Below, piece after piece: positions 1-29,416 of a stretch of 64,000 nucleotides of DNA. The translations under genes were made by a program, and so were the position numbers. The stretch spans positions 1-64,000 of IMG/VR virus record IMGVR_UViG_3300044623_000784; one strand, 5' to 3'. The notes under the pieces were generated by a model. It was not told where the DNA came from. It ran no database searches and saw only the letters and a program-made list of their open reading frames with translations. Source of the stretch: a virus. Each line of letters opens with the position of its first letter. The stretch's first letter is position 1.

Positions 1-72
1 GCTAATGGAAATGTTCGTGTAAAGTTAGATGTAAATGGCGCAACTCGTTATACAACTTGGACGGCTAAGTAA
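1..72 (+). CDS. C-terminal end of an upstream protein (partial)
   Basis: An open frame enters from the left edge and stops at the TAA at 70-72, giving 23 residues that end in TTWTAK. The piece is too short to assign. It sits 11 nt before the first copy of the pseudoknot element, the same gene-then-pseudoknot order seen after several other genes in this window. Confidence 0.6.
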   Translation, partial: ANGNVRVKLDVNGATRYTTWTAK

Positions 73-83
73 GTAAATAGTTT

Positions 84-110
84 ATTCCTGAGTATGAATT
101 AAAACTACTC
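84..110 (+). ncRNA. H-type pseudoknot element, copy 1
   Basis: Stem 1 is ATTC (84-87) with GAAT (96-99). Loop 1 is CT. Stem 2 is GAGTA (90-94) with TACTC (106-110). The linker is TAAAAC. It starts 11 nt after the stop at 72 and no T-run follows, so it is not an intrinsic terminator. Seven other copies in the window share the CU loop and AAAC linker while both stems covary. Confidence 0.75.
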
Positions 111-153
111 AACACCCCCAACTAATAACCCACAAAAGAAAAGAGATAAACAG

Positions 154-576
154 ATGGCTAGAGCAAAAGCAATAAATGTAAAAATCCCAACAGTTCGTGT
201 AATCGCAGGACTAGAGCAAGCACTTGCTACACTAGAAGCAGACTACGCAACACAATCAGCAAAAGAAGCGCAATACGAAATTGCTAAGAAGGCTTGGCAA
301 AAAGAGGTTATTGACTACGCAGTAGCAAACATCTCAAAAGCAGAAAACTTCCGCACCAACTATCGTAATTGGTCAAACAATCTTAACATTGACTTTGACT
401 TGACAGTATTGGAAAAGGATTTGCCAACAGAGCCTGAAAAGGACTTCGAGGTAATTCACTCCAGCACTTATCGTGAGTCAAAGAAAGAAATCCAAAACGC
501 AATCCGTATTCTGAAAATGACAGATGAGGAAACAGTAAATACCTCAACCTACAACGCAATCGCTCAGTATCTATAA
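154..576 (+). CDS. Conserved hypothetical phage protein, 140 aa
   Basis: I do not recognise a family. The protein is Lys/Glu/Ala rich and predicted mostly helical, with a likely coiled coil in residues 15-60 and no membrane segment or cysteine motif. A purine-rich ribosome site (AAGAGA) lies about 8 nt before the ATG. The gene lies between pseudoknot copies 1 and 2, in a row of similar-sized genes that may be well expressed. A perfect TATAAT overlaps its stop codon at 572-577. Confidence 0.75.
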   Translation: MARAKAINVKIPTVRVIAGLEQALATLEADYATQSAKEAQYEIAKKAWQKEVIDYAVANISKAENFRTNYRNWSNNLNIDFDLTVLEKDLPTEPEKDFEVIHSSTYRESKKEIQNAIRILKMTDEETVNTSTYNAIAQYL

Positions 577-585
577 TTAGATACA

Positions 586-612
586 ACTCCTGAGTATGAG
601 TCTAAACTGCTC
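586..612 (+). ncRNA. H-type pseudoknot element, copy 2
   Basis: Stem 1 is ACTC (586-589) with GAGT (598-601). Stem 2 is GAGTA (592-596) with TGCTC (608-612), including one G-U pair. Loop 1 is CT and the linker is CTAAAC. It begins 10 nt after the preceding stop codon. A TATAAT at 572-577 could also start a transcript just ahead of it, so an RNA that begins with this copy and ends with copy 3 is possible. Confidence 0.75.
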
Positions 613-728
613 AACCACGACCACAGAAATGCGTGGCTAAATAAATAGAGTGGAGAATTCGCCAGGCTGATTAGGGCGATCATAGAAATACTATAGAGCC
701 AGTTCACACCAACTGCAAGAAGTGTAAC
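613..728 (+). other. Non-coding stretch with several hairpins between two pseudoknots
   Basis: No open frame with a start and ribosome site is present. Local hairpins can be drawn: CCACG (615-619) with CGTGG (632-636), GGC/ATAG (675-685) with CTAT/GCC (691-700), and CAGTT (700-704) with AACTG (711-715). Together with the flanking pseudoknots this could be one small structured RNA of about 170 nt. It does not fold as a tRNA. Confidence 0.35.
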
Positions 729-754
729 TACCTGAGTATGTATCAAAACTGCTC
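729..754 (+). ncRNA. H-type pseudoknot element, copy 3
   Basis: Stem 1 is TAC (729-731) with GTA (740-742). Stem 2 is GAGTA (734-738) with TGCTC (750-754). Loop 1 is CT and the linker TCAAAAC. The promoter of the next gene starts downstream of it at 768, so this copy is not in the leader of that gene's own transcript. Confidence 0.7.
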
Positions 755-767
755 CCCGCAAGGGCCC

Positions 768-797
768 TTGACAAATGTCAGTGGCACCCAGTACAAT
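768..797 (+). promoter_or_regulatory. Sigma70-type promoter for the gene at 829
   Basis: TTGACA (768-773), an 18 bp spacer and TACAAT (792-797). The expected start near 804 leaves a leader of about 25 nt carrying an AGAAAGAGG ribosome site. Confidence 0.7.
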
Positions 798-828
798 TGA
801 ATTAACCAACTAACAGAAAGAGGCCCCC

Positions 829-1257
829 ATGGACCAAACAGAAACATCAGTAACAGTAATACCAAACACAACACAGGAATTCCTTCAGTCTCAAATTAAA
901 ATCAAGGATGAGCGCATTGCTCAACTTGAGGACCACATTCAAAAAGTAACTCAGCGCTCATATGCAGATTCTGCAGAGCGTAACCGTATTACAGAAGATA
1001 TGCAGACATGGACTCTCTCAGCGCTTGAGAGTGGAACAATTAATGAGTCAGAAGCAGAAGAGATTGCGGAAATCGTTGGATTCGAATTAACGAAAGAATT
1101 CGAATTAGAAGTTACAGTTATGTATTCAGTCACCGTTAATGCTCGTGATGAAGAGTCTGCACAGAATGTAATTCACGATATTGATTTTGATACCGTTCAA
1201 TACGACTCAGATAATATTTCTTGGTTGTCATCCAGTGTTGACAGAATAGATATTTAG
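829..1257 (+). CDS. Conserved hypothetical phage protein, 142 aa
   Basis: The first third (about residues 15-45) looks like a coiled coil. The middle is acidic and helical, and the last third (about 88-142) is beta-rich with many Asp residues. No known domain is recognised. The start is supported by AGAAAGAGG 6 nt upstream and by the promoter at 768-797. It is followed 15 nt after its stop by pseudoknot copy 4. Confidence 0.75.
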   Translation: MDQTETSVTVIPNTTQEFLQSQIKIKDERIAQLEDHIQKVTQRSYADSAERNRITEDMQTWTLSALESGTINESEAEEIAEIVGFELTKEFELEVTVMYSVTVNARDEESAQNVIHDIDFDTVQYDSDNISWLSSSVDRIDI

Positions 1258-1272
1258 TAGGGGGCTACTAAA

Positions 1273-1303
1273 GGACCTGAGCATGTCTCTACATAAACTG
1301 CTC
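1273..1303 (+). ncRNA. H-type pseudoknot element, copy 4
   Basis: Stem 1 is GGAC (1273-1276) with GTCT (1285-1288), with one G-U pair. Stem 2 is GAGCA (1279-1283) with TGCTC (1299-1303). The linker is the longest of the set, CTACATAAAC. The promoter of the following DUF932 gene (1429-1457) lies well downstream, which again places this copy at the 3' end of the preceding message. Confidence 0.72.
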
Positions 1304-1336
1304 TCTCATTATTCCGTGAAAAATTCCACGTGGGGC

Positions 1337-1356
1337 TTATCCACAGGTTATCCACA
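1337..1356 (+). promoter_or_regulatory. Tandem pair of DnaA boxes
   Basis: Two perfect TTATCCACA 9-mers (1337-1345 and 1348-1356) in direct orientation, with starts 11 bp apart, one helical turn. They lie in a 231 bp non-coding gap next to a TCCACGTGGGG sequence that recurs at 2620-2631. Host DnaA could act here as an initiator or as a regulator of the promoter about 80 bp downstream. Confidence 0.6.
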
Positions 1357-1428
1357 TGATCAAGATCACATTGTGATTTACGATACAGTTACGAAATGCC
1401 CCAATTGTCCCATGCTTACTTATACGAT

Positions 1429-1457
1429 TTGACTTTGTCAGTCCACCCATGTATACT
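1429..1457 (+). promoter_or_regulatory. Sigma70-type promoter for the DUF932 gene
   Basis: TTGACT (1429-1434), a 17 bp spacer and TATACT (1452-1457). It argues for the downstream ATG at 1489 as the true start, because a start at 1396 would lie upstream of the promoter. Confidence 0.75.
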
Positions 1458-6843: not shown

Positions 6844-7350
6844 ATGCCCATAGACAAGTATGAACTCACAAGAAACTACTTCCTTATCAACACCAACTGG
6901 GAACAGGCACTGACTCTCCTATATAAAAATGCGGAAGGCTCACAAAGACCTGAGACCCTATGGTTTAAAATAAAAAACCGTAGATTATTTGATGACCTTC
7001 CAGACCTTAAAGACTTCTTTGAAAAGATAAACAAGGACTATGGCTCAAAGTATTACGATGACTGCCCATATTACGATGCGTGGCAAGTTGGTATATGTAA
7101 TTGTGATGGTATATGGCATGTTGATGGACCAGTTATATCTTTAGACAATAGTGTAGTTAGCCCTCATAGAGATGTCCACGATGCAGCCTATCTTCAAATG
7201 TTAGGCCAATCATTCTGGAGATTAGGTGGGGAAGAAGAAATTGTCCTAAATCCAGGGGATATCCTTTTCCTATCCAATGAGATTACTCATGAGGTATGGG
7301 GGCAAGGACCTCGTATGGGTATTCTCCTTATGGCATTAAAGCCTCTATAA
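6844..7350 (+). CDS. Cupin / aspartyl-hydroxylase-like protein
   Basis: A 168-residue protein. VSPHRDVHDAAYLQ gives a His-x-x-x-His pair, and LNPGDILFLSNEITHEVWG is a typical cupin strand pair with a distal His. This suggests a metal-dependent beta-barrel enzyme, possibly a hydroxylase. The N-terminal half is helical and contains a Cys/Asp/Tyr-rich insert (DDCPYYDAWQVGICNCDG). Leaderless start (TATAAT plus 6 nt). The substrate is unknown. Confidence 0.55.
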   Translation: MPIDKYELTRNYFLINTNWEQALTLLYKNAEGSQRPETLWFKIKNRRLFDDLPDLKDFFEKINKDYGSKYYDDCPYYDAWQVGICNCDGIWHVDGPVISLDNSVVSPHRDVHDAAYLQMLGQSFWRLGGEEEIVLNPGDILFLSNEITHEVWGQGPRMGILLMALKPL

Positions 7351-14142: not shown

Positions 14143-14247
14143 GTGACAATATAGTCGCTGTATCTTTGTCGGGAAACTTTTTTATAGCGTGTTGCAACAC
14201 TATATTGTCCTTAACTTAAAGTCCTGGGTATGACTTAAAAACTACCC
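14143..14247 (+). ncRNA. Promoter-driven structured small RNA ending in a pseudoknot
   Basis: TATAAT (14131-14136) predicts a start at about 14143. GACAATATAG (14145-14154) pairs perfectly with CTATATTGTC (14200-14209), enclosing a second stem CGCTGTA (14156-14162) with TATAGCG (14183-14189). The RNA ends with pseudoknot copy 6. The only open frame is GTG ACA ATA stop, so it is non-coding. It faces the convergent thioredoxin gene, whose stop it overlaps. Confidence 0.55.
14219..14247 (+). ncRNA. H-type pseudoknot element, copy 6
   Basis: Stem 1 is AAGTC (14219-14223) with GACTT (14232-14236). Stem 2 is GGGTA (14226-14230) with TACCC (14243-14247), a compensated change from the GAGTA/TACTC of copy 1. 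The linker is AAAAAC. No + strand gene follows, so it must be at a 3' end. Confidence 0.78.
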
Positions 14248-15473: not shown

Positions 15474-16517
15474 CTACTTTGAACTTATTTCTGCTACTCT
15501 TGCCTTTGAAAACTTGAGCATAGCACTTCTGATTGGAGAGTAGCCAAGATCTTCAGCCTTCTTGCCACAGGTATCAAGCATAAAGTTAAAGAACTTTTTA
15601 ACGGAATCATTTTTTGAGTTCTTCTCTTTGTATGCTATACCGTATGTGAATGTTGATATGTTATAGGATAGTTTATTAGGGTTCTTGTAATTAATTTTAA
15701 CTACGCCACTCTTGTCTGGGACAAAGTCTCCAAGGAATACTGACGCTGCACTCACTGTTGGCTGTATAAACCTTCCAGCCTCATTCTCAACAGAGACTGT
15801 CTTTAGTCCTCTTGCATATGATATCTCATTGTATCCAATAGATCCATTTGTAGTTCCTTGTACCATTGCAATTCCATGAGACCCAGAAGCGCTGGTCATA
15901 TAACTCTTAGATATATCTCCAGGGAATGCAGTACCAAAGTTTTTATTCCCTGGTTTGTTCCATATAGTTGGAGCAACTGCATTAAGGTATGAGGTAAAAA
16001 CTTCTGAAGTTCCAGAACCATCAACACGGTATACAACTCTAATCTTTGTTGCTGGTATCTTAGGTAGTTTTCCTGATATAAGGTTTTCTTTTAATATCTG
16101 TGGGTCGTTCCACATTGTTATTTGTCCCGCAAAAACTTTAGCAAGGGTATCTTTACTCATCTTGATAGTAACTTTATATCCATCAAGTTTGTAGATAATT
16201 CCAATTGGCCCTGCTACCAATGGAACATATACAAACTCTTTTGATGGCTTTACTTCTGTACCAGAGTAAGGAACATCTGACATAGCAAAGTCTGTTACTC
16301 CATTTGAAAACATATTCTTTCCAGCACCTGATCCAGATGCTCCATATACAACAGAATCTCCTGTTGATTTCATAAATTCGACCCTGCATCTGTCTATAAA
16401 GTTAGCAGCAAATGTGGATCCAGCACCTTGAAGGTTGTCAGCATGTGAAGGGGTAATAAAAAAAGCATTAGCAAATATGGCTAATGCTACTGGTAAAGCA
16501 ATGAATTTAAATTTCAT
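15474..16517 (-). CDS. pstS: Phosphate ABC transporter substrate-binding protein PstS
   Basis: 347 residues. The signal peptide is MKFKFIALPVALAIFANAFF...SHA. Phosphate-binding blocks follow: GAGSTFAANF, YGASGSGAGK, DFAMSD and GSGTSEVFTSYL. PstS captures phosphate outside the membrane for the PstCAB transporter, and phages that carry it are thought to boost phosphate uptake. No other pst gene is present. The start at 16517 is fixed by TATACT (16524-16529) 6 nt upstream; an in-frame extension to 16679 lies upstream of that promoter. Confidence 0.92.
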   Translation of the reverse strand: MKFKFIALPVALAIFANAFFITPSHADNLQGAGSTFAANFIDRCRVEFMKSTGDSVVYGASGSGAGKNMFSNGVTDFAMSDVPYSGTEVKPSKEFVYVPLVAGPIGIIYKLDGYKVTIKMSKDTLAKVFAGQITMWNDPQILKENLISGKLPKIPATKIRVVYRVDGSGTSEVFTSYLNAVAPTIWNKPGNKNFGTAFPGDISKSYMTSASGSHGIAMVQGTTNGSIGYNEISYARGLKTVSVENEAGRFIQPTVSAASVFLGDFVPDKSGVVKINYKNPNKLSYNISTFTYGIAYKEKNSKNDSVKKFFNFMLDTCGKKAEDLGYSPIRSAMLKFSKARVAEISSK

Positions 16518-16592: not shown

Positions 16593-16618
16593 GAGCAGTT
16601 TATGGACTTGCTCAGGTC
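16593..16618 (-). ncRNA. H-type pseudoknot element, copy 7
   Basis: On the - strand, stem 1 is GAC (16616-16618) with GTC (16605-16607). Stem 2 is GAGCA (16609-16613) with TGCTC (16593-16597). Loop 1 is CT and the linker CATAAAC. It lies upstream of the PstS promoter, so it is outside the PstS leader. Confidence 0.72.
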
Positions 16619-16695
16619 TCCCAGGGTGCGACCCTGGCTTGTCCGTACTCAGCAATAAGGTTGCTAAAAGCAACTGCATGTATCATGACGGAATA
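16593..16695 (-). ncRNA. Structured small RNA ending in a pseudoknot
   Basis: TATAAT (16702-16707) follows directly on the Hsp20 stop codon and predicts a start near 16695. The RNA contains the hairpin GTTGCT/AGCAAC around 16660-16675 and a perfect CCAGGGT/ACCCTGG hairpin (about 16620-16636), then pseudoknot copy 7. The PstS promoter lies beyond its end. It may be an independent small RNA or the Hsp20 3' region. Confidence 0.5.
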
Positions 16696-16707
16696 CTATC
16701 TATTATA

Positions 16708-17124
16708 CTATTTAATTTTAATAGATTTTGGCTTTTTGTCTTCAGGAACAATGCGTACAACATTTACATGTAGCATACCATCCTTTAGTTCTGCAGAAGT
16801 TACTTCCATGTACTCTCCCAGTGCAAAAGATCTTACAAACTTTCTTCCTGCGATTCCCTTGTGAACTACCTCTGCATCTGTCACTTCAACAATCTCACCC
16901 TTGATGATCAGTGTTCCATTATCTACTGAAACATCAATATCGTCTTTTGAAAAACCAGCGACAGCCAGTGAAATCTTGTATGTATCTTCATCTAGTTTGA
17001 TTAGATCATACGGAGGGTATGACTGTGAGTTTGTTTTATGTGCTGTATTTAGGCGACTCAACTCTCTGTTGAAGCCAATAAAAAAAGGATCATTGAATAG
17101 ATCCATAGCGTACTTTGTTACCAT
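16708..17124 (-). CDS. Small heat-shock protein (Hsp20/IbpA-like)
   Basis: 138 residues. The alpha-crystallin domain spans about residues 38-130 (YPPYDLIKLDEDTYKISLAV, AGFSKDDIDV, GTLIIKGE), with a short basic tail. The start has GAAAGGGG 6 nt upstream and a 50 nt leader from TATAAT (17180-17185), so unlike many neighbours this message has a leader. Phage Hsp20 proteins are common in cyanophages and may aid virion protein folding. Confidence 0.9.
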   Translation of the reverse strand: MVTKYAMDLFNDPFFIGFNRELSRLNTAHKTNSQSYPPYDLIKLDEDTYKISLAVAGFSKDDIDVSVDNGTLIIKGEIVEVTDAEVVHKGIAGRKFVRSFALGEYMEVTSAELKDGMLHVNVVRIVPEDKKPKSIKIK

Positions 17125-29284: not shown

Positions 29285-29309
29285 TGTGTTCCTTTCGGTA
29301 GTTTTCCGC

Positions 29310-29380
29310 TGCCCCACCTGGCCTCGATCCAGGGACATCCGAATTAACAGTTCGGCACTCTACCATCTGAGTTATAGGGC
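29310..29380 (-). tRNA. tRNA-Asn (GTT)
   Basis: Acceptor GCCCTAT with GTGGGGC, D stem CTC/GAG, anticodon stem CCGAA/TTCGG with loop CTGTTAA, T stem CCTGG/CCAGG with the unusual loop ATCGAGG. CCA not encoded. Pseudoknot copy 8 ends 5 nt before its 5' end. Confidence 0.9.
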
Positions 29381-29385
29381 ATAGA

Positions 29386-29410
29386 AGGCAGTTTTAGTCA
29401 TGCCCAGGAC
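29386..29410 (-). ncRNA. H-type pseudoknot element, copy 8
   Basis: On the - strand, stem 1 is GTC (29408-29410) with GAC (29397-29399). Stem 2 is GGGCA (29401-29405) with TGCCT (29386-29390), a double change from copy 1 that keeps pairing. Loop 1 CT, linker TAAAAC. It starts 6 nt after the protease stop and ends 5 nt before tRNA-Asn. Confidence 0.75.
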
Positions 29411-29416
29411 ATTCGT

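Follow-up and report, generated by a model that had tools for sequence, protein, structure and literature searches.

REP/BIME elements and other stem-loops that block 3′ exonucleases are intergenic, lie behind stop codons and often stand within operons. In the T4/T2 gene 32 message, an H-type pseudoknot with coaxial stems lies 67 nt upstream of the gene that it represses and binds gp32 (PMC3014915). Phage transcripts often have no recognisable terminators, and the making and protection of their 3′ ends are poorly known. In the first 64,000 nt of a 118,084-base virus record (hereafter the window, meaning the whole stretch of DNA analysed), we found a short element that shares its position with the former systems and its fold, in phage messages, with the latter. 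Eight copies lie in the window (six on the + strand, two on the − strand) and 12 in the record; for the core pattern, none is expected in shuffled sequence, and the reversed pattern had no match in the whole record. The window copies and neighbouring features are:

84–110, + strand: copy 1; P1 84–87/96–99, P2 90–94/106–110; 11 nt past the stop at 72
154–576, + strand: gene of a 140-aa family, between copies 1 and 2
586–612, + strand: copy 2; 9 nt past the stop at 576
728–754, + strand: copy 3; closes a 115-nt non-coding stretch, with the promoter-like site at 768–797 next
768–797, + strand: sigma-70-like promoter after copy 3; TTGACA-18-TACAAT, 11/12, a consensus match only
1273–1303, + strand: copy 4; loop 4 nt longer; 15 nt past the stop at 1257, with the promoter-like site at 1429–1457 next
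1429–1457, + strand: sigma-70-like promoter after copy 4; TTGACT-17-TATACT, 10/12, a consensus match only
1489–2505, + strand: DUF932 gene; second commonest upstream partner family in relatives
2511–2537, + strand: copy 5; 5 nt past the DUF932 stop (2505), with tRNA-Asp 4 nt on
2542–2616, + strand: tRNA-Asp, directly 3′ of copy 5
14220–14247, + strand: copy 6; GGGUA/UACCC variant, 93 nt past a tRNA-Arg
16593–16619, − strand: copy 7; 88 nt past the Hsp20 stop, with PstS next
16708–17124, − strand: Hsp20 gene; commonest upstream partner family in relatives
29308–29381, − strand: tRNA-Asn, directly 3′ of copy 8
29386–29411, − strand: copy 8; 5 nt past the stop of a subtilase-like gene (29417), with tRNA-Asn 4 nt on

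A sequence-only reading of the window had placed the pseudoknots at message 3′ ends and not in leaders, and several of its local observations hold. Five copies follow stops closely (11, 9, 15, 5 and 5 nt after 72, 576, 1257, 2505 and 29417). The promoter-like sites at 768–797 and 1429–1457 fall, as it had said, between copies 3 and 4 and their respective next start codons. Copy 6, which overlaps the end of a convergent thioredoxin-like gene, has no further + strand gene after it in the window. Its −10 for PstS is present as a motif (TATACT, 16529–16524, 7 nt before the ATG at 16517) with no −35, and the promoter scan does not call the site. Copy 1 is intercistronic, gene 154–576 following with no credible promoter in between, and no terminator-like site was found on the + strand of 1–2760, which holds five copies.

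The non-coding 115 nt that separate copies 2 and 3 (613–727) lie in a region conserved at ~80% with the far end of the record and may represent a small RNA with a pseudoknot on either side. Positions 116673–118084 of the record repeat the small-gene/pseudoknot/promoter cassette of window positions 1–1277 at ~79% identity.

A conserved H-type pseudoknot

By comparison and covariation, the element is an H-type pseudoknot of two interleaved helices, ~27 nt long and ordered P1 (3–4 bp), CU, P2 (5 bp), 1 nt, P1′, NNAAAC and P2′. Strand by strand, the consensus reads NNNC (5′ side of P1), the CU loop, GRGYA (5′ side of P2), a single nucleotide, GNNN (3′ side of P1), a loop of ~6 nt ending in AAAC, and URCYC (3′ side of P2). 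Across the 12 copies of the record, 96.7% of pair cells are standard, compared with 28–43% when the partners are slid.

Both helices persist when their sequence is left free. An IMG/VR scan with P1 unconstrained matched at least 120 stretches, and among the matches listed there were 153 distinct viral copies, all of which form Watson–Crick pairs 2 and 3 of P1 (153/153; shuffling gave means of 72 and 65 and maxima of 89 and 79 per 153), with pair 4 formed in 127/153. A second scan, with the inner P2 positions free, yielded 168 copies, 162 of them forming all five P2 pairs; compensated rare types among them were GCCCA/UGGGC, GGUGA/UCACC and GGAUA/UAUCC. Loop 3, also left free, almost always closes with AAAC. 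Loop 1 reads CU in 103/108 copies and CC in 5/108, and the single nucleotide of loop 2 is usually A or T, with C or G also occurring. The G–U pairs of P2 (GAGUA/UGCUC) indicate that the element acts as RNA. The coaxial stems, pyrimidine loop and A-rich loop suggest base triples. P2 also keeps to GRGYA/UGCYC far beyond the needs of base pairing, a constancy that could reflect a specific binding partner and that counts against the explanation we favour below.

None of the 4,227 families in the Rfam 15 covariance models matches the pseudoknot, and relaxed thresholds returned tRNA and chance matches only, besides the neighbouring GP20-b RNA. Patterns with a wrong fixed gap had no matches. A structural search of all viral loci gave 435 matches compared with 22 in the reversed control; a structural match at window position 6952 (+ strand) falls within a called gene and was put down to chance. 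Rare variants whose closing pairs in P2 or P1 differ (AGGCA/UGCCU, AAGCA/UGCUU and P1 CAUG/CAUG, at loci L243, L303, L294 and L091) indicate a family wider than our search patterns.

Placement behind the stop and the upstream gene

The pseudoknot is anchored to the stop codon before it. Among 319 viral copies placed against our own gene calls, a set whose numbers are limited by redundancy among metagenomic phages, 288 have a same-strand gene upstream, only 6 an opposite-strand gene, and 3 fall within a called gene. In the 288 cases, the distance between stop and P1 has a sharp floor at 4–5 nt and a mode of 5 (two copies at 4 nt, 40 at 5 nt and 22 at 6 nt). Where the spacer leaves 80–400 nt to spare, 44/85 copies lie within 24 nt of the stop and 11/85 within 32 nt of the next start; counting one case per gene-pair type, 38 are near the stop versus 9 near the start (KS p = 2 × 10−13). 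What follows the stop-proximal copies is a gene at no more than 49 nt in 73 cases and one farther off in 62, a tRNA within 15 nt in 26 and a convergent gene in 4. Genes for tRNAs are 4.3 times likelier than coding sequences to be directly preceded by the element (31/234 versus 123/3,562). Whatever follows, the 10 nt after P2 are G-poor (4–14% across classes versus 22% further down), so a single-stranded tail seems to be part of the element.

Upstream partners are the more constant side. Four upstream families account for 132/288 cases, and the element is carried by 54/57 homologues of Hsp20, 37/48 of DUF932 and 31/34 of the 140-aa family, each with 7–15 different downstream partners. In typical downstream families, the element stands before a smaller share of members (18/35, 8/30, 1/11 and 1/17), and the Simpson concentration of partners is 0.017 downstream versus 0.062 upstream, in loci that were all chosen for holding a pseudoknot, a bias equal for the two sides. 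The upstream genes have stronger Shine–Dalgarno sequences and end in TAA more often (78% versus 58%) and in TGA less often (6% versus 25%), and by these signs look well expressed.

Homologues lacking the pseudoknot tend to carry a hairpin instead. We folded the 60 nt after the stop in 17 such homologues of the three families, with 800 other genes as background, and obtained medians of −23.6 kcal/mol and −8.7 kcal/mol, respectively; −20 kcal/mol or lower was reached by 11/17 versus 57/800 (p = 5 × 10−9). Eight of the 11 replacing hairpins have at most four T in the 8 bases that follow, and two stand 32 nt before a tRNA-Asp. Such an exchange, at one site, of a pseudoknot for a strong hairpin that lacks a U-tract fits a barrier at the 3′ end better than it fits termination, operator binding or a riboswitch.

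The stop floor, the anchoring in long spacers, the upstream families and the hairpin replacement thus sustain that part of the sequence-only reading which tied the element to the 3′ end of the upstream gene. Its exclusion from leaders was too absolute. The next gene starts within 49 nt in 123/319 viral copies, which puts the pseudoknot in the same RNA as that gene unless the RNA is processed, and in the Hsp20 class a TATAAT stands between stop and pseudoknot, so copy 7 could lie in a leader. The element is often in polycistronic RNAs and before tRNAs; it is punctuation, and not always an end.

In the window, this TATAAT (16707–16702, − strand) comes directly after the Hsp20 stop and, with hairpins, separates that stop from copy 7; the same arrangement recurs in the Hsp20 class of many phages. 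Across 16620–16707 (− strand) and in relatives (L072, L099, L306), the TATAAT and hairpins such as CUGCACCCCGUCACUGGGGAGUCGCAG precede the pseudoknot whichever gene follows. This block is a candidate leader, or else a candidate promoter with its small RNA; were the TATAAT a promoter, the pseudoknot there would be in a leader.

Proposed role and rival explanations

The element is probably a 3′-UTR punctuation element that blocks 3′-to-5′ decay of the upstream coding segment, marks processing ends, or does both. A compact H-type pseudoknot with a G-poor single-stranded tail of ~8 nt, set as near the stop as the terminating ribosome allows, would mark and protect the 3′ end of the upstream coding segment. 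Downstream RNA would be lost in one of three ways (RNase P cleavage at an adjacent tRNA, endonuclease cuts within the AU-rich, G-poor tail, or later termination), and the pseudoknot would then bar 3′-to-5′ exonucleases from the coding sequence as a stable hairpin would. With RNase P cutting at an adjacent tRNA, the upstream message would end 4–14 nt past the pseudoknot. The sequences show the structure, its placement, the tie to the upstream gene and the exchange with hairpins; cleavage, a higher yield of the upstream protein and the plausible blocking of exonucleases are inferred.

A weak terminator or pause is the main rival, and an unlikely one. P2 would close at the RNA exit channel while the G-poor, U-rich tail, present in all classes, loosens the RNA–DNA hybrid. 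Such a role would suit the promoter-like sites after copies 3 and 4, the near absence of canonical terminators after the element (1/185) and the runs of at least five T in the first 12 nt after it (in 19/159 viral copies and 26/108 bacterial ones; control stretches gave about 1). It sits poorly with the 26 stop-proximal copies (≤24 nt) that have a tRNA less than 15 nt on, too close for a promoter to fit in between, with the 123 copies that lie at most 49 nt before the next start codon, and with replacing hairpins that mostly have no U-tract. The earlier statement that no T-run follows the element is true of all window copies and needs qualifying for viral relatives, about 12% of which have T ≥ 5 within 12 nt. 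A GC-rich hairpin with an immediate U-tract, as in intrinsic terminators, is thus not what is seen, and neither a U-tract terminator nor a riboswitch fits, in support of the sequence-only reading, which had ranked both below an RNA-stabilising or processing element.

Two further rivals are improbable, to a similar degree. In the first, the pseudoknot would contact the terminating ribosome or insulate the stop from run-on to the next start. The floor observed after the stop (4–5 nt) is about the spacer of frameshifting pseudoknots, and many next genes start 15–39 nt downstream. Spacing nevertheless ranges over 5–24 nt and further without keeping to one reading-frame phase, a tRNA or a convergent gene may come next, and the TAA-rich, TGA-poor stops are the opposite of readthrough contexts, on which ground stop-codon readthrough was rejected. 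Overlapping frames, a slippery site or leaky stop and fixed spacing were likewise not found, only 3/319 copies being inside a called gene.

The second would make the element a regulatory leader or binding site for the downstream gene, as a riboswitch or protein operator. The high conservation of P2, CU and AAAC would suit it, as would the TATAAT of the Hsp20 class and, in Lactobacillus prophages, the position ahead of GP20-b and the scaffold gene, a setting in which the element may serve what lies downstream. It is disfavoured by varied downstream partners, by anchoring to the stop and not the start, by frequent downstream tRNAs and by the lack of an Rfam match; a tie to a downstream family and its start codon is not observed, the Hsp20 class with its upstream TATAAT being a possible exception. 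Antitermination through an effect on RNA polymerase, as with the put RNAs of phage HK022, is very improbable: several copies per genome, phages of many hosts and a frequent place before untranslated tRNA genes would agree with it, but copies also stand at convergent ends and directly before new promoters, where antitermination would be senseless.

Distribution and comparison with known systems

Many metagenomic phages carry the family, as do prophages from many bacterial phyla; among isolated phages, it is present in Lactobacillus phage phiAQ113, Mycobacterium phage Labelle and Arthrobacter phage Amigo. In Paracoccus phage ParMal1, a BLAST match lies 6 nt after a stop; a match in phage ICBM2 falls inside a glutaredoxin gene and was judged to be chance. 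GTDB genomes, searched with P1 fixed as GAC/GUC (about one match expected by chance, by our own estimate), gave 94 matching stretches in many phyla, with carriers in Lactobacillales, Lachnospiraceae, Patescibacteria, Bacteroidota, Cyanobacteria, Alphaproteobacteria and others. Carrier genomes mostly have one or two copies, and prevalence in two bacterial classes is 1/274 and 2/301 genomes, seed genomes included; the element is therefore mobile and mostly of phages, and a host housekeeping role was rejected on the same prevalence. Several copies within a few kb, some away from called genes, were seen on chromosomal contigs of a Bacteroidetes MAG (L184) and of Ignavibacteria (L200).

It is possible, at somewhat less than even chances, that this one pseudoknot family is a general 3′-end device of tailed phages across phyla, replacing terminators and REP hairpins, protecting selected messages and, with RNase P at adjacent tRNAs, serving as punctuation that makes mRNA 3′ ends without transcription termination. 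A short, searchable motif that marks chosen 3′ UTRs and swaps with hairpins would make the question testable in culturable phages; it would also add a feature for genome annotation and supply a compact, portable means of stabilising mRNA. Literature searches found no description of the pseudoknot, within a coverage that leaves out many subscription papers and so limits the claim to novelty.

Several described RNAs share single traits with the element. GP20-b RNA (RF03003), which reportedly entered Rfam from a large structured-RNA survey of 2017, is a phage RNA that neighbours the pseudoknot ahead of scaffold genes in prophages of Lactobacillus and Lachnospiraceae, but it is a separate structure ~18 nt further downstream (L140:396–463, − strand; L163:1720–1778; L190:4424–4482). 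At L131, L151 and L208, a second covarying pseudoknot-like element (GGGAGCUGACCC...CAGCU / GGGAGCAGACCC...CUGCU), seen by eye, lies 3′ of the pseudoknot, just before the Shine–Dalgarno sequence of the scaffold gene. ToxI-type antitoxin pseudoknots of type III toxin–antitoxin systems are likewise small, H-type and of phages and mobile elements, but form arrays before a toxin, whereas the present element occurs as single dispersed copies after unrelated genes. Intrinsic terminators also place structured RNA past a stop, sometimes with a U-rich tail as here, but the U-run of the element is weak or absent, and tRNAs and genes stand close behind it.

Compact triple-helical pseudoknots, such as luteovirus frameshift signals and preQ1-I, have the same two short stems, 2-nt first loop and A-rich last loop; unlike them, the element lies outside a reading frame, without a slippery site and without an Rfam match. 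It differs from the gene 32 pseudoknot in following the stops of many different genes; it is not a leader upstream of a gene for a single-stranded DNA-binding protein, and in Amigo it follows the SSB gene. In contrast to REP/BIME-type elements, it is a 27-nt, phage-borne, non-palindromic pseudoknot with a fixed sequence core, for which exonuclease blocking is proposed. Like them, it stands just after stops, is tied to the upstream gene and is interchangeable with a stable stem-loop, orthologous sites alternating between pseudoknot and strong hairpin (11/17 versus 57/800).
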